This document shows, one piece after another, positions 2,749-24,989 of a DNA stretch of 64,000 nt. The stretch lies in contig NZ_AP021884.1 of assembly GCF_009938015.1 (NCBI RefSeq), forward strand, positions 3,040,585-3,104,584, read 5' to 3'. Each line of letters opens with the position of its first letter. Within the stretch, counting starts at the first letter, position 1. The notes beneath the pieces were generated by a model. The model saw only the letters and a list, made by a program, of their open reading frames with translations, ran no database searches and was not told where the DNA came from. This DNA comes from Sulfuriferula plumbiphila. Its GTDB lineage: Bacteria > Pseudomonadota > Gammaproteobacteria > Burkholderiales > Sulfuriferulaceae. Position numbers and translations under genes: made by a program.

Positions 2749-2912
2749 TCACCAAGGGCACGCCATCCAATCGCCAGGATGCCGATGGCCCATCAAGGCG
2801 CTGTTCAGTAACCGTCCAAGTTACCGGGTTGTCCCGATCGTTCATTTCCCGACCTTGAACGGTTGCCTTGGGCGCTGCAAGGGTTTGAAGATACTGTTGA
2901 TGTCGAGTATGC
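2749..2912. other. intergenic stretch after polA
   Basis: 164 bases between polA and the first permease gene. I see no convincing terminator hairpin with a T-tract and no clear sigma70 promoter. The start of the following permease is uncertain, so its leader may extend into this stretch. Confidence 0.4.
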
Positions 2913-4187
2913 TTGGCTGGCAAACTTTCTTGCGGTTCCACATTCAACAACTTGGCGATCGTCCATACCCTGGCTGTCGATTTCCGGCTTGCTCTGCGCA
3001 ATATTCTGCGCCAGCGCAGACGCAGCTTCATCGCAGTCGTTGCGATCGGCTTTGGCGTTATCGCCATGATGCTTTCTGCGGGTTACATTGAGTGGATTTT
3101 CTGGGCGAACCGCGAGCGGGTCGCCGTTAACCAGCTCGGCCATATTCAAGTGGCCAGACCCGGGTATCACGAAGACGGCCAGGCAAACCCGTTGGCCTTC
3201 CTGCTTCCGGAAAACGCACCTGCATTGAATGTTCTCGAACATATTCCTGGTGTAAAGTCGGTGGCACCACGCCTGGCCTTCAACGGCCTGGTAAGTCATG
3301 GCGAAAACACCCTGTCCTTCATTGGCGAGGGCATTGACCCGGCCAAGGATCCGTCGGCTCGCAATCTGGCCATCCTCGACGGGCACGGGTTAAATGCAAA
3401 TGACCCGAAGGGTATCCTTATGGGCGCCGGACTGGCCGCCAATCTGGGTGTAAAAAAGGGCGACACGGTGGTGTTGCTCGCTAACACGCTATCCGGGGGC
3501 ATCAATGCCGTTGAGGGACGGGTGCGTGGTTTGGCGTCAACTTCCATGAAGGAATATGACGATACCATGCTACGCGTACCGATCCAGATGGCGCGCACAT
3601 TGCTGCGCACCAGCGGTTCCCACCTATGGGTTGTGTCGCTGCAGCACACAGAAATGACCGATGAGGTCATGAGACGACTGAATGCTGAACCGGCGCTAAA
3701 GAGTTACGAGATCGTGCCATGGACGAAGCTAGCAGACTTCTACAATAAGACTGTCGCGCTGTTTTCCCGCCAGATGGATATAGTCAAGTCCATCATTGCC
3801 CTGATCATCATACTCAGCATCAGCAATACCATGACCATGAGCGTAATGGAGCGCACGGTTGAGATTGGCACGGCGATGGCCCTGGGGGTCAGGCGCCAGC
3901 GCATCCTCGGCCTATTCCTGATGGAAGGATCGTTGCTGGGTGCAATGGGAGGTGTCTGCGGTGTGATGCTCGGTTATCTGGCGGCCAGCATCATCTCGGC
4001 AATCGGCATCCCCATGCCGCCGGCGCCAGGCATGTCGCGCGGGTTCACTGCCGCAATCATGATCACGCCCACCATCATCTGGGAAGCCTTGCTGCTGGCT
4101 TTAACAACCACCCTCATCGCCAGCATCTATCCGGCCTGGCGTGCATCGCGGCTGGTCATTGTCGATGCGTTGCGCCACAACCGCTGA
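2913..4187 (+). CDS. MacB/LolC-type ABC transporter permease, first copy
   Basis: Inner-membrane permease of the FtsX/MacB superfamily. There is one membrane segment near the N-terminus (about residues 38-58), a large periplasmic domain of about 220 residues, then three C-terminal membrane segments (IIALIIILSISNTMTMSV; the region around LLGAMGGVCGVMLGYLAA; and ALLLALTTTLIASIYPAW). The end PAWRASRLVIVDALRH is typical of the family. The TTG start at 2913 has no good ribosome site; TTG at 2952 or CTG at 2970 would bring the N-terminus closer to the usual form, so the start is uncertain. A paralogous permease follows 12 bases downstream. An ATPase, a LolA-like protein and an outer-membrane protein lie next to the pair, suggesting one transport system moving lipidic or lipoprotein cargo; the cargo is unknown. 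Confidence 0.85.
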   Translation: MAGKLSCGSTFNNLAIVHTLAVDFRLALRNILRQRRRSFIAVVAIGFGVIAMMLSAGYIEWIFWANRERVAVNQLGHIQVARPGYHEDGQANPLAFLLPENAPALNVLEHIPGVKSVAPRLAFNGLVSHGENTLSFIGEGIDPAKDPSARNLAILDGHGLNANDPKGILMGAGLAANLGVKKGDTVVLLANTLSGGINAVEGRVRGLASTSMKEYDDTMLRVPIQMARTLLRTSGSHLWVVSLQHTEMTDEVMRRLNAEPALKSYEIVPWTKLADFYNKTVALFSRQMDIVKSIIALIIILSISNTMTMSVMERTVEIGTAMALGVRRQRILGLFLMEGSLLGAMGGVCGVMLGYLAASIISAIGIPMPPAPGMSRGFTAAIMITPTIIWEALLLALTTTLIASIYPAWRASRLVIVDALRHNR

Positions 4188-4199
4188 GGAACTCCAGGT

Positions 4200-5408
4200 A
4201 TGTGGAAGCTTGCCCTGCGCAATGTCCTGCGCCACAAAGCCCGAACCGGCATGACACTATTGGCCATCATCGCTGGCGTGGTCGGCCTCATCCTGAGTGG
4301 CGGCTTCGTCCATGACATCTTCACCCAGCTTGGTGAAGCCCTTATCCATTCCCAGTCCGGCCACGTGCAACTTTCACGCACCGGCTATTTCGAGCATGGT
4401 GCCCGCAGTCCGGAGAAATACCTGATCACCGAACCCGAACCGATACGCAAGGAAATAGCCGCGATGGCCGGGGTGGATGACGTAATGGGCAGAGTCTACT
4501 TTGCCGGTTTGCTCAACAATGGCCGCTCCGATCTGCCCATCGTTGGAGAGGGCGTGGAAGCGTCCCGGGAGGCCAGACTCGGCAGCGGCATGGTGATCTC
4601 GGCGGGGCGCAGGCTTGAGGACAAGGATGAACACGGCATGATGGTTGGCTACGGCGTGGCCCACGCCCTCAAACTCAAGCCCGGAGACTGGGCAACCCTG
4701 GTGATGAACACTGCTGACGGCGCTTTGAACAGCCTCGACTTCCAGGTAGTCGGCGTCTTTCAGACCTTCTCCAGGGATTATGATGCGCGTGCGGTGCGTA
4801 TCCCCCTGGCGGCTGCCCAGGATTTGCTCGCCACACATGGGGTCAACACGCTGGTGATATCCCTGAAACAGACCCGGGAAACAGAATCCATGGCAACCGC
4901 CCTGAAGAAATATATCGGGCCTGGCCTGGAAGTAAAGACCTGGCTGGAGCTGAACGACTTCTATGCCAAGACCGTGAAGATGTACGACGTGCAGTTCGGC
5001 GTGCTGCGCCTCATCATCCTGTTGATGGTGCTGTTGAGCGTGGTCAATAGCGTCAATATGAGTGTGTACGAGCGGGTGGGCGAATTCGGCACCATGATGG
5101 CGTTGGGCAATCGCAGTCGCAAGGTATTCGCCCTGATCATCGCGGAGAACACAATTATCGGTTTGGCTGGCGCCACCGCCGGCGTGGTTCTGGGCATCGT
5201 GCTGGCGCTGATCATCTCGGCCATCGGCATTCCCATGCCGCCGCCGCCCAACGCGAACCTGAGCTATATCGCTCACATCCGTGTGGTGCCTGCGGTAGTC
5301 GCCGGGGCCTTCGCGGTGGGGCTGATTGCCACCATCGTGGCCGCGCTTCTGCCGGCGGCACGGGTACATCGAATACCCGTTGTGGATGCGCTGCGGCAGA
5401 ACGTCTGA
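4200..5408 (+). CDS. MacB/LolC-type ABC transporter permease, second copy
   Basis: A 402-residue paralog of the preceding permease with the same architecture: N-terminal helix (residues about 18-40), periplasmic domain, and three C-terminal helices. It ends PAARVHRIPVVDALRQNV. Both copies carry the segment IISAIGIPMPP between the last helices, which marks them as a tandem duplication of one subfamily. The ATG start at 4200 is 12 bases after the first permease stop, so the genes are almost certainly co-transcribed and form a LolC/LolE-like heterodimer. The gene ends 37 bases before the converging outer-membrane protein gene. Confidence 0.87.
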   Translation: MWKLALRNVLRHKARTGMTLLAIIAGVVGLILSGGFVHDIFTQLGEALIHSQSGHVQLSRTGYFEHGARSPEKYLITEPEPIRKEIAAMAGVDDVMGRVYFAGLLNNGRSDLPIVGEGVEASREARLGSGMVISAGRRLEDKDEHGMMVGYGVAHALKLKPGDWATLVMNTADGALNSLDFQVVGVFQTFSRDYDARAVRIPLAAAQDLLATHGVNTLVISLKQTRETESMATALKKYIGPGLEVKTWLELNDFYAKTVKMYDVQFGVLRLIILLMVLLSVVNSVNMSVYERVGEFGTMMALGNRSRKVFALIIAENTIIGLAGATAGVVLGIVLALIISAIGIPMPPPPNANLSYIAHIRVVPAVVAGAFAVGLIATIVAALLPAARVHRIPVVDALRQNV

Positions 5409-5445
5409 GATCTTCGCGTCCGTCCCGAATGTTCCGACATCCGGG

Positions 5446-7035
5446 CTAGAAATCGCGGCGCAGCTCGGTGTAGACCCGGTCCTGCTTGCTGTACTGGCCG
5501 AACAAACCGGTGGGCGGCCCCCCGAACGTATCCAGCCCGAATGCCAGATGCCAGTTACGCTCGAATCCCCAGCCCACTTTGGGCCGGAACATCCAGTCAC
5601 TGCGATTGAGGCTGTGCACCAGTAGCGCTTCCGCTTCCCAGTTGTGGCCGAACTTATGATTTACCAGCAAAGAAACGTCGTTCTCAATTCGGTCCGGGAT
5701 GATGTTCGGATCATGATTGAAATAAACACGTTGGTAGAACTGCGTATTGATCCGGGTCTGCGCAGTGGGATTGAAATCCAGACCCACGATCCAGTCGAGC
5801 GTATTCTGTTTCACCACACCGTTGATATCGGCAGCACTCAGGGTATTGTAACTGCGCCCGCTGGTATAGACAGCTTCGGCCTTGAGCACGAAAGAACCCA
5901 AATCCTTGGCCACGGTGCCACCCGTTTGCCAGATGCGGTCATGGCTGGGGGTGAAGACGAAATACGGTGTGGGCGTGGCCACGAGTTGACGATAGAACGT
6001 CGCTTGACTATCCATGCTGCTGTAGTAGAAACCGGAAACGTCCCAGCCGTTGGTCAGCTGGGAAAGCCGCAAGCCGTAATTTGTGTTGCCCAGACGATTG
6101 CCAGGCAACACTTCGTCCCGGAACACCACCGGATAGCCTGGTGGAGTGGGCGGATAAGGGTAGAAATCCGCGCCGGATCCGGGCTGGCTGAAATCTTTCG
6201 GTTTGCCGATCCTGTCGTAACTGGGGACGGGAATCCAGATCAGTTCGGCGTGGAAGTCGTGCTTGAAATACTCGGCGCGGGCGGCCCATTGCGGGATGCG
6301 CAACACCTGGAAGTCGGGCAGGATGAATTCACGCAGGTCCCTGGCAGAGACGACGTCGGCAACGAACACGCCCACCATCTCGCCCCAGACAATCTGTTGC
6401 CGGCCTACGCGCCAATCCAGCCCGCCGCCGCTAAAGTCCAGATAGGTTTCACGCAACTGGAGTCCCAGCCGCTGGTCATCACGCACTGAATCCTGATAGA
6501 ACTGGGTGAGATCGTAAACTGCGTTGTAATCCAGGCGGCCACTGGCTTTCCAGTGGATGCCCTGACCAAGCCTGCCCTCCGTGCCTAGCTCGAGACGCCC
6601 CATTACCTTTGACCAGTGCGCAGGGTCCGCATAAGTATAGGCAAGCTCGTTCTGGAAGAACCCGTGCCAGCGCGATGCCGCTTTATCCTGACCTAGCCCC
6701 TCATCGAAAAGCGACGCTTTGCTGGCCGGCGCATCCTTTCCCGTTTTGCTGGCGCCGCCATTTCCCTGCTCGGTTTTGGAGTCGACGCCGAATAGCGCAT
6801 CCTTTGATTCAGACATATCCCCTGTGGGCTTCGAAATCGTTTTACCGTCTTTGTCTGCTGCAGGGGGAACATCGAAGAGGGTATCCCTGGACAGTGGCAG
6901 GTCCATGTCGCCGGCAGCCAACAGAAATGGCGCCGGCTTGCCGGGCATACTCAAAGCGTCCGTGCCCGACGCGCCCGCCAGAACTGGCGCACCCAGCGCA
7001 ACCATCCCTACCACCCCCGCCAAACGTGAAATCAT
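5446..7035 (-). CDS. DUF1302-type outer-membrane beta-barrel protein
   Basis: Predicted outer-membrane protein, 529 residues from the ATG at 7035. That ATG is preceded by a strong AGAGGGG ribosome site; an upstream in-frame GTG at 7050 overlaps the ATPase stop but would not use that site. The signal peptide (ISRLAGVVGMVALGAPVLA) is followed by a polar linker of about 90 residues carrying three short repeats (TLFD, ALFG, SLFD), then a beta-rich domain with the DUF1302-like pattern LRETYLDFSGG, WRVGRQQIVWGE and RDLREFILPDFQVLRIP, ending in aromatic YTELRRDF as expected for BAM substrates. It is co-transcribed with the ATPase gene and so probably provides the outer-membrane end of the same system. 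Its biochemical role is unknown. Confidence 0.8.
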   Translation of the reverse strand: MISRLAGVVGMVALGAPVLAGASGTDALSMPGKPAPFLLAAGDMDLPLSRDTLFDVPPAADKDGKTISKPTGDMSESKDALFGVDSKTEQGNGGASKTGKDAPASKASLFDEGLGQDKAASRWHGFFQNELAYTYADPAHWSKVMGRLELGTEGRLGQGIHWKASGRLDYNAVYDLTQFYQDSVRDDQRLGLQLRETYLDFSGGGLDWRVGRQQIVWGEMVGVFVADVVSARDLREFILPDFQVLRIPQWAARAEYFKHDFHAELIWIPVPSYDRIGKPKDFSQPGSGADFYPYPPTPPGYPVVFRDEVLPGNRLGNTNYGLRLSQLTNGWDVSGFYYSSMDSQATFYRQLVATPTPYFVFTPSHDRIWQTGGTVAKDLGSFVLKAEAVYTSGRSYNTLSAADINGVVKQNTLDWIVGLDFNPTAQTRINTQFYQRVYFNHDPNIIPDRIENDVSLLVNHKFGHNWEAEALLVHSLNRSDWMFRPKVGWGFERNWHLAFGLDTFGGPPTGLFGQYSKQDRVYTELRRDF

Positions 7036-21092: not shown

Positions 21093-21949
21093 TGTTGTCC
21101 GCAATCCGCGACCGGCTCGGCGCAGACCAGGCACAGCTGATGCAGGCACTCGCGCTGGACCCCTGCGACGCCCGCCTGGAGACACAGCTGCTGATGGCTG
21201 CAGCCCTCGGCGTCAACCGTGCGTGGCTGCTGGCGCACGGCGAGGAAATGCTCGCTCCTGCTGCGGCAGCGCGTTATGCAGATTTGCTCGAGCGCAGGCT
21301 GGCAGGTGAGCCGATCGCCTATATTTTTGGCGCAAAGGAATTCTACGGCCTGATGTTCAAGGTCAGTCCGGCCGTGCTCATCCCGCGTCCGGAAACCGAG
21401 CTGCTGGTGGAACTGGCGCTGGCGCGCATCGCAGCGGACAGGCCATGCCGGGTGCTGGACCTGGGCACTGGCAGCGGGATAATTGCAGTCACACTGGCCC
21501 GGCTGCGTCCCTTGGCTGAACTGGTTGCGCTGGATGTCAGCCCGGCGGCGCTGGCGCTGGCGCAGGAGAATGCCCGCAACCTGGAAGCAAGCAATGTGCA
21601 GTTTATTGAAAGCGACTGGTTCAGTGCACTGGGCAGTGTCGGAAAATTTGACGTTATTGTCAGCAATCCGCCCTATGTCAGCGCAGGCGATCCCCATCTT
21701 GCACATGGCGACTTGCGTTTCGAGCCGCCACACGCACTCGCCGCGGGCCCATCCGGGCGCAGCGCGCTCGCCCGGATTATCGCCCAGGCGGCGCCTAATA
21801 TGGCAACCGCGGGCACGCTATTGCTGGAACATGGCTACGACCAGGGCGAATATACGCGCGCCGCACTGCAACAAGCCGGATTTCACCAATGTGTCACCTA
21901 TCATGACCTCGCCGGCGTGGAGCGGGTAACGCTGGGGACTGTCGGATAA
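21092..21949 (+). CDS. prmC: release factor glutamine methyltransferase
   Basis: N5-methylates the glutamine of the GGQ motif in release factors, using S-adenosylmethionine. The 285-residue protein has an N-terminal helical domain, the spacer PRPETELLVE, SAM-binding VLDLGTGSGIIAVTLA and the diagnostic NPPYV motif (VSNPPYVSAGD). The ATG at 21092 overlaps the prfA stop. The last part runs to LAGVERVTLG as usual for the family. Confidence 0.96.
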   Translation: MLSAIRDRLGADQAQLMQALALDPCDARLETQLLMAAALGVNRAWLLAHGEEMLAPAAAARYADLLERRLAGEPIAYIFGAKEFYGLMFKVSPAVLIPRPETELLVELALARIAADRPCRVLDLGTGSGIIAVTLARLRPLAELVALDVSPAALALAQENARNLEASNVQFIESDWFSALGSVGKFDVIVSNPPYVSAGDPHLAHGDLRFEPPHALAAGPSGRSALARIIAQAAPNMATAGTLLLEHGYDQGEYTRAALQQAGFHQCVTYHDLAGVERVTLGTVG

Positions 21950-22104
21950 ATTTACACCCTGGCCGCCATCCACGCTGTTATCATTCCCGGTCAACCCGGC
22001 ATGCCTGCCATTGCGGATGCATCCGGGAGATCCCGGAGATTGGAATGTTTGTTGCTAGATATCTGCGTATACAGACATGCATGCAGGTATATAAAGGGTG
22101 GGCA

Positions 22105-22710
22105 ATGGATAATAAAATTCATGACGAGTCACAGGCCACGGCGACCGAATCCATTGCCAAAGACAGTGTTGCCAACGATGCACGGCGCCGCTTTACCCGC
22201 ACCGGTCTGGGTGCCGGTGCCGTCATCGCCACTCTCGCCAGCCAGCCGGTGCTGGGCGCTGTGCCTTACGCATGCACCATCTCTGGCCACGCGTCAGGCA
22301 ACGTCTCCAGCCACGGCCAACCGACGAACTGCGCCATCTTTGGAAAGAGTCACGGCTATTGGAAAAAAACCGAAAAACACGCTTGGCCGTCACCTTTCGA
22401 CCCTGAGCAGCTGTTCAAGGACGCAGGCGGCGTGAGTGGTTCACTATTGGATGTGCAGGGGATTACTACCGCCAAAACCCTGTTGGAAGTGCTAGGGCTG
22501 GATGGTGGCGACATGAGCGCACTGGCGCGTGAAGTGGTGGGCGCGATGCTTAATGCGCAAGCTTTTGCACCCGACTTCCCTCTCAGCGTGGCGCAGGTCA
22601 AAAGCATCTGGAATGAGGTGGTGACTTATAATCAATACACGGTAAAGCCAGGTGTGGCCTGGACTAGCGAAGACGTAAAAAACTACCTTGAAAGTTTGCA
22701 CGACAACTGA
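22105..22710 (+). CDS. Tat-type exported GYWK-motif protein of the HPr-rel-A cluster
   Basis: I do not recognise a named family. The 201-residue product from the ATG at 22105 (AAAGGGTGGGCA upstream) has a polar N-region, a twin-arginine-like signal (ARRRFTRTGLGAGAVIA, Arg27-29) with a hydrophobic stretch to about residue 52, then two cysteines (57 and 76) and FGKSHGYWKKTEKHAWP. The GYWK...W pattern resembles SxGYWKNHxxxW segments I recall in various secreted bacterial proteins. An ATG at 22045 would add 20 residues before the Tat motif. It immediately precedes the pqqD-like, kinase and nucleotidyltransferase genes, so it is the best candidate for the protein handled by that system. The substrate role is inference. 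Confidence 0.6.
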   Translation: MDNKIHDESQATATESIAKDSVANDARRRFTRTGLGAGAVIATLASQPVLGAVPYACTISGHASGNVSSHGQPTNCAIFGKSHGYWKKTEKHAWPSPFDPEQLFKDAGGVSGSLLDVQGITTAKTLLEVLGLDGGDMSALAREVVGAMLNAQAFAPDFPLSVAQVKSIWNEVVTYNQYTVKPGVAWTSEDVKNYLESLHDN

Positions 22711-22724
22711 GTCTGGTCGTTACT

Positions 22725-23000
22725 GTGTGGCATCTGACCGCTGACACGCTGGTGTACGCGCCTGCCTCGGAAGAGGCTGCGGTCATTTACAATACAGCTT
22801 CTGGCGACACCCACCTGGTCAATGCCCTGGCGGCTCAGGTCATCAGCCTGCTTGGCAGTACCGCGGCGAGTACCGATATATTGCTCGACCGGATCGCGGA
22901 TCAATATCCAGCGCCGCCTGATCCCGAACTCCTGCAAGTGCTTGAGAGCACGCTCGCCGATCTCCATCGTCTCGATCTGATCACTGAAACTTCAGCTTGA
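22725..23000 (+). CDS. HPr-rel-A system PqqD-family peptide chaperone
   Basis: A 91-residue PqqD-like protein starting at GTG 22725. Typical PqqD features are AASEEAAVIYNTASGDTHLVNAL-type strands (written here as EEAAVIYNTASGDTHLVN) followed by a helical part with HRLDLI near the end. PqqD domains, known as RREs in peptide-modifying systems, bind leader segments of the protein to be modified. It lies between the exported GYWK protein and the HprK-related kinase, whose TTG start overlaps its TGA stop. This combination matches what NCBI annotation calls the HPr-rel-A system. Confidence 0.78.
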   Translation: MWHLTADTLVYAPASEEAAVIYNTASGDTHLVNALAAQVISLLGSTAASTDILLDRIADQYPAPPDPELLQVLESTLADLHRLDLITETSA

Positions 23001-23917
23001 ACGTCGCACATTACAGCCTGGCCGGTCTGCGCCAAGAAATGGCACGGGACGGAATATATCTTCAAACCGGCGCTTTTGTCGCCCGTGTCCGCAGCCCTGT
23101 TTCGCAGGTAGCAGAGGGCATCCATCAACTCTATGCCGATGCATCGATTCTACCCACGCACGGATTCGCGGATTTTCATGTCACCCTGGCCCCCCCCGCC
23201 ACTTACCGGCGCTGGTTCAAACCGCAAGTGATATTTCGCTCTGATGGCTACGCACCATTCAAACCCTTACCCATTGACCAGGCGTTCGCCCTGTTCGAGT
23301 GGGGGCTCAACTGGTGCATCTCCAGCCATGCCCATCAGTACCTCATCATCCACGCCGCAGCCGTCGAAAAGCACGGTTTTGCCGCCATCCTGCCCGCCCC
23401 GCCGGGCTCGGGCAAAAGCACGCTTGCTGCCGGCCTGGTCAATCGCGGCTGGCGCCTGTTATCAGATGAACTCACGCTGCTATCGCGGGAGGGCATGATT
23501 CAGCCGGTTGCCCGCCCCGTCAGCCTGAAAAATCAGTCCATAGAGGTGATAAGCCAGTTTGCCCCCCAGGCCTGTATCGGACGCATAGTCAAGGACACCA
23601 TCAAGGGAACCGTCGCCCACATGCGCGCACCCGCAGGCAGCGTCGCCCGGGTGTATGAACAGGCGCAGCCTGGCTGGGTCATCTTCCCGAAATATCAGGC
23701 GGGCGTGTCCGCCACCCTGACGCCGATGGGGGGTGCGGAAGCCTTTATGGGGCTGGCGCAAAATGCTTTCAACTACAGCCTGCTGGCGCAGGAAGGCTTT
23801 CGGCGCCTGACTGCGCTGATGGGTGCCAGCGCCAGTTACCGTTTTCACTATAGTGATCTGGAAGAGGCGGCAAGCGTGTTCGATGGGATCGCGGAGCAAC
23901 GGCATGCGAACATGTGA
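22997..23917 (+). CDS. HprK-related kinase A
   Basis: A 306-residue P-loop protein related to HPr kinase/phosphorylase. Walker A is PAPPGSGKSTLAAGL near residues 133-146, followed by RLLSDELTLL, the position of the HprK catalytic acidic residues. The N-terminal 110 residues lack the HPr kinase N-domain and instead resemble other HprK-related kinase A proteins. The start is TTG at 22997, overlapping the pqqD-like stop by four bases. By analogy with HprK-like kinases that phosphorylate lasso peptide precursors, it may phosphorylate a Ser/Thr on a peptide or exported protein bound by the PqqD partner. The target is not known. Confidence 0.82.
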   Translation: MNVAHYSLAGLRQEMARDGIYLQTGAFVARVRSPVSQVAEGIHQLYADASILPTHGFADFHVTLAPPATYRRWFKPQVIFRSDGYAPFKPLPIDQAFALFEWGLNWCISSHAHQYLIIHAAAVEKHGFAAILPAPPGSGKSTLAAGLVNRGWRLLSDELTLLSREGMIQPVARPVSLKNQSIEVISQFAPQACIGRIVKDTIKGTVAHMRAPAGSVARVYEQAQPGWVIFPKYQAGVSATLTPMGGAEAFMGLAQNAFNYSLLAQEGFRRLTALMGASASYRFHYSDLEEAASVFDGIAEQRHANM

Positions 23918-24989
23918 TTGTGCCATTGTCCGGGCGCTGCGCGAGCCAGACCGTCTCGATCAATTCAGCATGGCGGAATGGGATACCCTCATTCGTCAGG
24001 GTCGACGCGCCGATTTGCTGGCCCGGCTGCATGGGCTTGTCCAAGAAAAAAACCTGCTCGCATCCCTGCCTGAAGCACCACGTGCCCATTTGCAGGCAGC
24101 ACGGGTGGTCGCCGACAAGCAGGCGACAGCAGTCGCCTGGGAAGTGCGCAAAATCCGCGCGGCGATTGCCCATACCGGTGCGCCCCTGATCCTCCTGAAG
24201 GGTGCTGCCTACTGCATGGCGGCACTGGCGGCGGGGCGCGGACGCGTGTTCTCCGACGTGGATATCCTCGTGCCCAGGCAACGCATCAATCACGTCGAAG
24301 CCGCACTCATGCTGCACGGCTGGGTCGCCACCCAGCATGACGCCTACGACCAGCGCTACTACCGCACCTGGATGCATGAAATTCCGCCGCTGCTGCACAT
24401 CAGGCGCCTGTCGGTGATCGACGTGCACCATGCCATCCTGCCGGAGACGGCGCGACTGCGTCCTGACCCGGCCCTGCTGCTGGCTGCGGCACAGCCTATT
24501 GCGGATGAACCCGGCGTATATACGCTGGCACCCGCCGACATGGTGCTGCACTCAGCCAGCCATTTGTTCTGCGGCGAATTCGGGCATGGCTTGCGCGATC
24601 TGTCGGACATAGACTTGCTGCTGCGCGAATTCGGTACGGTGGCAGGGTTTTGGGATGGCCTGGTGGCGCGCGCACAAAGCCTGGATCTGGCACGGCCGCT
24701 GTATTACGCCCTGCACTGGGCGACGCGGCTGTTTGCCACGCCGGTGCCGCCCATCGTGCTGCGCGAGATAGACGCATGCGCGCGCCCGTCTACGCCAGTG
24801 AAAACACTCATGAATGCACTGCTGCAGCGCACCCTGGCGCCCGATCACGCCAGTTGCCGCGATGCGCTGTCTGTGCCGGCGCGCGCTCTGCTCTATGCGC
24901 GCGCGCACTGGCTGCGCATGCCGCCGCACTTGCTGGCTTACCATCTGGCGCACAAGGCGCTGTTTCCGCCACGCGCGGCGACAAATTAA
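23904..24989 (+). CDS. NTP_transf_5-type nucleotidyltransferase of the HPr-rel-A cluster
   Basis: A 361-residue protein of the uncharacterised nucleotidyltransferase family NTP_transf_5. The core is APLILLKGAAYCMAAL (residues 93-108) followed by RVFSDVDILVP (115-124) with the metal-binding DxD. Later segments (MHEIPPLLHIRRLSVIDVHH; LHSASHLFCG) are typical of the family. The ATG at 23904 overlaps the kinase gene by 14 bases. NTP_transf_5 proteins recur beside HprK-like kinases in peptide-modifying clusters, so this one may act on the product of the kinase. This is inference; no activity is known for this branch. Confidence 0.78.
   Translation: MRTCDCAIVRALREPDRLDQFSMAEWDTLIRQGRRADLLARLHGLVQEKNLLASLPEAPRAHLQAARVVADKQATAVAWEVRKIRAAIAHTGAPLILLKGAAYCMAALAAGRGRVFSDVDILVPRQRINHVEAALMLHGWVATQHDAYDQRYYRTWMHEIPPLLHIRRLSVIDVHHAILPETARLRPDPALLLAAAQPIADEPGVYTLAPADMVLHSASHLFCGEFGHGLRDLSDIDLLLREFGTVAGFWDGLVARAQSLDLARPLYYALHWATRLFATPVPPIVLREIDACARPSTPVKTLMNALLQRTLAPDHASCRDALSVPARALLYARAHWLRMPPHLLAYHLAHKALFPPRAATN

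Follow-up and report, generated by a model that had tools for sequence, protein, structure and literature searches.

What do an HprK-like kinase and a nucleotidyltransferase-family protein act on when their genes are packed into one operon with those of a PqqD-like protein and an exported protein? The question is posed by positions 22105 to 24989 of a 64,000-nt stretch of the Sulfuriferula plumbiphila genome (contig NZ_AP021884.1, positions 3,040,585 to 3,104,584; the whole stretch is called the window below), where four such genes form an HPr-rel-A system. We suggest that the operon probably belongs to the PEP-CTERM/exosortase (exopolysaccharide) regulon and serves in post-translational tailoring: its enzymes would modify the exported protein that it encodes, on a conserved serine and ahead of export. 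Its genes are packed as follows, the first encoding a protein with a twin-arginine-type (RR) signal and the second a protein resembling a discrete precursor-peptide recognition element (RRE).

22105..22710, + strand: exported protein, predicted substrate, of the first of two families (class 1); 201 aa; relatives in 97/107 distinct loci
22725..23000, + strand: PqqD_rel_X, discrete RRE-like protein; GTG start, 14-nt gap after the exported gene; TIGR04353 47.4 bits, cut-off 35
22997..23917, + strand: HprK_rel_A kinase; TTG start, 4-nt overlap with the preceding gene; TIGR04352 380.8 bits, cut-off 200
23904..24989, + strand: NTP_transf_5 protein; 14-nt overlap with the kinase gene; PF14907 186.5 bits, cut-off 31.2

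The coordinates and overlaps agree with an earlier note on this DNA, which had named the last three genes, given their overlaps as 4 and 14 nt, and found neither lasso cyclase nor leader protease; indeed, lasso cyclase and B2 protease are absent from the four genes. As in the NCBIfam description of HPr-rel-A, a kinase over its cut-off is adjacent both to a PqqD_rel_X protein over its cut-off and to a nucleotidyltransferase-family protein. The source genome holds a single HprK_rel_A kinase over the cut-off and a single copy of the exported protein. The latter has no match up to E = 1 in NCBIfam or Pfam, and ends in YLESLHDN, with no PEP-CTERM domain at its C-terminus by inspection of that end or by the same scan. 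Its ATG at 22105 is preceded by a Shine-Dalgarno-like sequence, AAAGGGTGGG (22093-22102), and the longer alternative starting at 22045 lies inside the predicted sigma-54 promoter described below (22041-22056); for both reasons the longer start is unlikely. Queries of a literature collection for the HPr-rel-A system, HprK-related kinases, PqqD with HprK, and PF14907 returned no published account of this system.

The earlier note had made its proposal depend on a conserved exported gene standing beside the trio in other genomes, and such a gene proved to be a conserved, co-inherited partner. An iterative profile search found a relative in 56 of a first set of 61 loci (60 collected, plus the window), and locus L092 adds one that the profile missed. 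A phylum sample and one order contributed another 45 loci and annotated plasmids two, bringing the set to 108, or 107 distinct loci, as L071 repeats L061. The exported gene occurs in 97 of these, a count that includes two (L150, L173) left unlabelled by automatic labelling and seen on inspection, and that was reached in part by rules using position, strand or tail. The profile alone, free of strand and tail rules, finds it in 84/107; a PqqD gene was detected in 79 of these 84, and in all 79 the exported gene immediately precedes PqqD on the same strand. The grouping of the four genes is thus far beyond chance. Among the ten loci without an exported gene, three are truncated by contig ends (L036, L059, L062) and one (L184) has PqqD but no detected exported gene; in L054 (5000-6921) PqqD and the exported gene were seemingly lost together while the nucleotidyltransferase gene was kept.

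The exported proteins fall into two families, class 1 (55 distinct loci, including the window) and class 2 (41 loci). In genome samples, an HprK_rel_A kinase over the cut-off was found in 42/370 genomes from the taxonomic class of the window and in 44/299 from its phylum. Class-1 profile matches that cover both the leader/loop region and the domain occur in 32 of the 370, all within the 42 kinase-positive genomes; the profile was built from kinase loci, and the informative part is its silence in the other 328. Leader-only matches appear in four further genomes (G033, G086, G166, G312), which hold weaker HprK-like kinases. A scan of genome contigs with the single window protein returned mainly close relatives of the window, and no relative was found in the phage collection searched. 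The partnership of exported gene and trio is well supported. The cassette also occurs on plasmids, L190 (Vibrio alfacsensis, 2863-5942) and L191 (Sphingomonas parapaucimobilis), all predicted to be non-mobilizable; public annotation of one plasmid gives a hypothetical protein in the place of the exported gene, followed by named PqqD, kinase and nucleotidyltransferase genes. Genome G260 carries a second class-1 exported protein (CTLSGMMSGNVS...; L192, 3905-5101, - strand) on a different contig from its kinase cassette, with no trio gene in the 8 kb examined around it, and this may be a substrate in trans.

Which residues of the exported protein might be modified? Three parts can be told apart in the window protein:

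22183..22260, + strand: twin-arginine-type signal and putative leader, residues 27-52; R27 in 53/55 and R28 in 54/55 class-1 rows
22273..22332, + strand: Cys-bounded serine loop, residues 57-76 (CTISGHASGNVSSHGQPTNC); S60, S64 and S68 are candidate acceptors
22348..22695, + strand: GYWK...AALLNA domain, about residues 82-197; helical in the AlphaFold2 model, with 10-residue blocks over 81-200 at pLDDT (predicted local distance difference test) 43-85

Class-1 proteins share this layout: the RR signal is followed by C-x(2,3)-S-[GA]-x-x-S-[GA]-N-x-S, the loop closes at a second Cys, and in most of them the GYWK...AALLNA domain comes next. The serine motif just after the signal, most often C-x(2,3)-S-G-x-x-S-G-N-x-S, places S60, S64 and S68 in the window protein. 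Over the 55 rows, C57 is kept in 54, S60 is Ser in 53 and Thr in two, S64 is kept in 54, N66 and S68 each in 48, and C76 in 53; R28 and S64 are the sole invariant columns of a 41-row class-1 alignment. The AlphaFold2 model is poor (mean pLDDT 56.4), with residues 1-78, serine loop included, below 50, followed by the helical domain; low confidence there fits an exposed loop without proving one. A fold search with this model gave no match at E <= 0.001 and was uninformative, and a PDB sequence search with the family gave nothing useful.

The earlier note had proposed looking for a Tat-type GYWK protein beside the kinase. An exported gene does co-occur, but GYWK is not what defines it: the motif was not seen in class 2 and is lost in five Nitrotoga loci (L048, L050, L051, L056, L060) that retain SGNTS. 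We rejected GYWK as the key feature on the ground of its absence from class 2 and its presence in larger secreted proteins without leader or serine loop. The module, which has no Pfam name in class-1 proteins, is an independent domain, since it ends larger secreted proteins that lack both the RR leader and the serine loop (L193, L194, L195).

Class-2 proteins have an N-terminus like that of class 1 and a mature domain without evident similarity to it; SCWTSF and FTCFASL are examples of the motif found at their C-terminus. Among class-2 ORFs (open reading frames) chosen by leader and position alone, with the tail ignored, C-x-x-S-[FLIVMA] lies within the last 40 aa in 36/39, the other three having A-x-x-S (44 rows were considered, five without a leader ORF: L036, L062, L182, L184, L191). 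The control frequency among all ORFs of at least 60 aa is 242/5486. The two substrate classes follow the kinases: on a tree of 107 kinases, class changes once over the 96 labelled rows, and class 1 against all 107 rows takes three changes where shuffling gives a mean of 36; the tree was built quickly, has several long branches and includes many non-independent rows.

The enzymes themselves carry conserved candidate active-site residues. In the kinase H119, the P-loop lysine K140, D157 and E158 are invariant in 61/61 loci. Lasso-peptide kinases have a conserved, required His-Lys-Asp-Asp set, and one of them, PadeK, acts on a C-terminal Ser (PMC9266682); H119, K140 and D157 would correspond to the first three and Glu158 to the fourth, an assignment that is ours, as the review passages used give no positions. 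A PDB sequence search with the kinase gave weak matches with HprK on top. In the NTP_transf_5 protein, K99, R114, D118, D120 and D173 (window numbering) are invariant in 61/61 loci in one comparison and in 18/18 in another. Its model is better (mean pLDDT 84.3); Foldseek neighbours are weak, none at E <= 0.001 (best E 2.8e-3), and nucleotidyltransferases lead them, JHP933, MenT1 and ANT(2'')-Ia among them, while a PDB sequence search with it gave nothing useful. The earlier note had held that the chemistry of this group was not established, and here it needs correcting, at least by analogy. PsmN, according to the passages cited, adds one or two hexoses to a phosphoserine made by PsmK, with nucleotidylation followed by host glycosylation left open (PMC9266682). 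The linear polyphosphorylated peptides (LPPs) of Bacillota, described in a 2026 paper, combine a discrete RRE, an HprK-like kinase, an NTP transferase, an SpI peptidase and an exporter; LppK (poly)phosphorylates Ser3 of the precursor, the final product being unidentified in that paper as far as its cited parts go (PMC13381572). Because of these precedents, sugar transfer by the NTP_transf_5 protein appears at least as likely as nucleotidylation.

Upstream of the operon lies a predicted regulatory element in two parts:

21940..21956, + strand: PEP-CTERM motif-1-like box TGTCGGATAAATTTACA, predicted PrsR enhancer site; TGTC-N8-TTAC pattern
22041..22056, + strand: predicted sigma-54 -24/-12 promoter TGGAATGTTTGTTGCT; exact match, 84 nt after the box

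Haft and colleagues described a PEP-CTERM element made up of a 17-nt motif 1 ending in TTTACA, a spacer of 32-92 nt and a sigma-54 motif (PMC1569441). The window element, compared with their text description rather than with a logo, fits in its TTTACA end and its 84-nt spacer. Sigma-54-like sites scoring at least 8 against the sigma-54 consensus precede the exported gene in 58/91 loci, as against 86/541 flank ORFs (Fisher 3.6e-20) and 7/91 reverse strands, the upstream windows being anchored on the first RR of each ORF rather than on mapped starts and the control flank ORFs being called mechanically. An unsupervised search upstream of these sites recovered TGTC-N8-TTAC in 32 of 51 regions, with no shuffle giving more than 6, after exclusion of L071, five near-duplicates and regions with no nearby sigma-54-like site of score 7. 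The joint element of box and sigma-54 site precedes 36/92 exported genes, 8/524 other ORFs and 2/1840 shuffles, a count that is in-sample because the box was first found in the same upstream regions; three of those eight ORFs end in PEP-CTERM-like tails and one is the exported gene of L173. The joint element is present in 29 of 92 groups once the loci are thinned at 85% kinase identity. The 3.45-Mb source genome has seven occurrences of the box pattern (against 3 for a control), and a good sigma-54 site follows it at two genes with VPEP-type C-terminal tails, at this operon and at one unassigned place.

A second exact box match in the window (3449-3465, - strand) lies inside an opposite-strand ORF (2913-4187), with a weak sigma-54 match beyond, and is probably due to chance. 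Another gene family, with tails like GIPPYPETKNYVKKIRKLYKK, has the same box and sigma-54 element in Sulfurimicrobium, Nitrosospira and a betaproteobacterial metagenome-assembled genome (L049 8265-9179, L054 8297-9160, L059 3366-4232). In Aquincola, floc formation involves a PEP-CTERM gene that depends on RpoN and has TGGCAC/CTGCTT motifs, according to the passages cited (PMC9850573).

The genomic setting points the same way as the element. The source genome encodes PrsR (TIGR02915, 741 bits), about 54 kb from the operon, and an exosortase (PF09721, E 1.1e-76). Exosortases (PF09721, E <= 1e-10) were found in 39/42 kinase-positive and 83/328 other genomes (Fisher 6.8e-18, a statistic that ignores phylogeny). 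Kinase and exosortase share a contig in 18/39 genomes; on contigs longer than 1 Mb, five of ten kinases lie within 60 kb of an exosortase where 0.5 would be expected, the limit of 60 kb having been chosen after the distances were seen. Among the representatives of recurrent flank clusters are XrtA/PEP-CTERM genes (the amidotransferase TIGR03108, the glycosyltransferase TIGR03088, PrsK and the exosortase A-associated acyl-CoA ligase), and another is a PrsR-like regulator fragment just below its cut-off; the remaining clusters are sugar-nucleotide enzymes or have weak or unnamed matches. These clusters hold 6 to 17 loci each and are loosely drawn, so that their sizes are not counts of one gene, and 10 of the 14 largest were named. 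The cassette thus looks like part of the PEP-CTERM/exosortase sigma-54 regulon, a regulatory setting that is well supported; with the element, the exosortase co-occurrence and the flanking genes, the description of a stand-alone system in the earlier note does not seem to hold.

How might the cassette work? PrsR binding at 21940, together with sigma-54 RNA polymerase at 22041, would lead to transcription of the operon with the matrix genes. The exported protein would be made with an RR-type signal of the twin-arginine translocation (Tat) pathway, and this signal region may double as the leader that the PqqD-like RRE, a discrete protein, recognises. The HprK-like kinase would act prior to export, phosphorylating S64 or S60, and less likely S68, in the Cys-bounded loop, or in class 2 the serine of the C-x-x-S-[hydrophobic] motif close to the C-terminus. 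Capping of the phosphate by the NTP_transf_5 protein might follow, most likely with a sugar, as by PsmN, and otherwise with a nucleotide; this is the most tentative of the steps. The folded, modified protein would leave through Tat, a route that would fit a modification in need of cytoplasmic ATP or sugar nucleotides, and could act in the extracellular matrix. We think it rather improbable, though worth naming, that the trio builds a phosphodiester-linked sugar on the exported protein as a primer or covalent anchor for the exosortase-locus exopolysaccharide, making a bacterial proteophosphoglycan that links protein to matrix.

Several observations weigh against this proposal, besides the limits already attached to the joint-element and exosortase counts. 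Co-inheritance is no proof of contact between enzyme and substrate, and six kinases (L054, L157, L158, L162, L172, L189) have neither PqqD nor exported gene detected nearby and may therefore have other targets. Pfam TAT_signal matches only 1/41 class-1 members, and weakly. The published RRE-binding motif [Y/W]xxPx[LVI..] is absent from the window leader, whose signal reads GLGAGAVIATLASQPVLGA, and a looser P-x-hydrophobic motif occurs in just 24/55 class-1 and 32/41 class-2 leaders, so that a universal leader motif for the RRE was rejected. The joint element precedes 31/51 class-1 genes but just 5/41 of class 2, and the exosortase of the source genome lies 622 kb from the cassette.

Among other explanations, the one we give most room, as a possible but lesser choice, differs only in the chemistry: the kinase would (poly)phosphorylate the serine and the NTP_transf_5 protein would add a nucleotide or further phosphate rather than a sugar, giving an exported phospho- or nucleotidyl-protein. 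LppK and the lasso kinases add one to four phosphates in the systems described (PMC13381572, PMC9266682), the best, if weak, structural neighbours of the NTP_transf_5 model are nucleotidyltransferases, and its K, R and three Asp are invariant; yet PsmN, a published tailoring enzyme from such a cluster that is homologous to nucleotidyltransferases, gave hexoses, even with the nucleotide-first route left open (PMC9266682). It is unlikely that the exported protein is instead a regulator or partner, with the trio modifying another target such as a polysaccharide, a lipid or a PEP-CTERM protein. Kinases without PqqD and exported gene would be accounted for, and residues bearing O- and N-linked groups are reported to abound in PEP-CTERM proteins (PMC1569441). 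Against it, two mature domains with no evident similarity come with the same kind of signal-type N-terminus and with a serine that hardly varies, and substrate class follows the kinase tree with one change; moreover, where a PqqD-like protein accompanies enzymes, the substrate is usually a peptide (PMC7470986, in its cited part). Less likely still, the exported proteins may be precursors of a modified peptide, with loop or tail cut out and the rest serving as scaffold. The class-2 protein of L090 has 74 aa, about a dozen of them after the signal, and relatives near kinases below the cut-off are mostly of 56-87 aa; most exported proteins examined, in contrast, are far longer than a peptide precursor. 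An SpI-like peptidase and an MsbA-like or other ABC exporter are absent from the four genes and from the representatives of the 10 named of the 14 largest flank clusters (the window flanks were not profile-scanned), and one flank representative gives a weak match to Do-family proteases at 41.8 bits (cut-off 416).

Tailoring of the exported protein on serine, which we prefer, can be set beside known systems, as far as the cited parts of their descriptions go. The LPPs of Bacillota share with the cassette a discrete RRE, an HprK-like kinase and an NTP transferase without lasso cyclase, a precursor with conserved N-terminus and variable C-terminus, a Ser near the mature N-terminus (phosphorylated in LPPs), and a place near polysaccharide loci; unlike them, the cassette belongs to Pseudomonadota, with an RR-type signal, protein-sized mature domains and PEP-CTERM-type regulation, and the YxxPx[V/L] leader motif is absent in the window (PMC13381572). 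Paeninodin and pseudomycoidin tailoring (PadeK, ThcoK, PsmK, PsmN; PMC9266682) likewise has an HprK-like kinase, to whose His-Lys-Asp-Asp set the invariant residues here may correspond, and a nucleotidyltransferase homologue, there acting on phosphoserine, and its C-terminal Ser target resembles the class-2 tail serine. The cassette differs in that its operon lacks lasso cyclase and B2 protease, the predicted exported substrate is protein-sized and the last acidic residue is Glu (D157-E158). With PEP-CTERM/exosortase (EpsH) systems under PrsK/PrsR it shares the 17-nt box and sigma-54 motif, and PrsR and exosortase are in the genome, whereas the exported protein has no PEP-CTERM tail and the trio goes unmentioned in the consulted passages of PMC1569441 and PMC9850573. 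The cassette would work like LPP and paeninodin tailoring, yet is neither an LPP nor a lasso system by the features compared; it looks like a variant of the known RRE-kinase-nucleotidyltransferase module. For the HPr-rel-A system this supplies a predicted substrate with candidate acceptor serines, names a candidate regulator and points to the exosortase/exopolysaccharide matrix as its biological setting. If our proposal is right, entire exported proteins are modified by the kind of kinase-nucleotidyltransferase tailoring familiar from small peptides, and PEP-CTERM bacteria possess one more way of making modified matrix proteins.

Two minor observations concern RRE-like partners and their leaders. 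Window protein P0002 weakly matches NF050145 (E 0.0015). Proteins modified in the HvfC-type bufferin systems reportedly bear a signal peptide. These systems, in the passages cited, resemble the cassette in pairing modified proteins with an RRE-like partner (PMC12452194), while no MNIO enzyme is found among the four genes. The other concerns nine small RR-signal proteins of 56-87 aa, one of them 149 aa (L123 3881-4144; L124 5993-6220; L125 4640-4846 and 5292-5516; L126 4576-4749 and 6212-6391; L127 5191-5418; L138 2152-2601; L142 5670-5840). Six of the nine are in stretches whose HprK-like kinase falls short of the TIGR04352 cut-off, and PqqD and NTP_transf_5 genes accompany it in some. Y-x-x-P-x-hydrophobic, resembling the published RRE-binding motif, is present in eight and GS just after AxA in five, and these proteins are possibly a second, peptide-sized branch.

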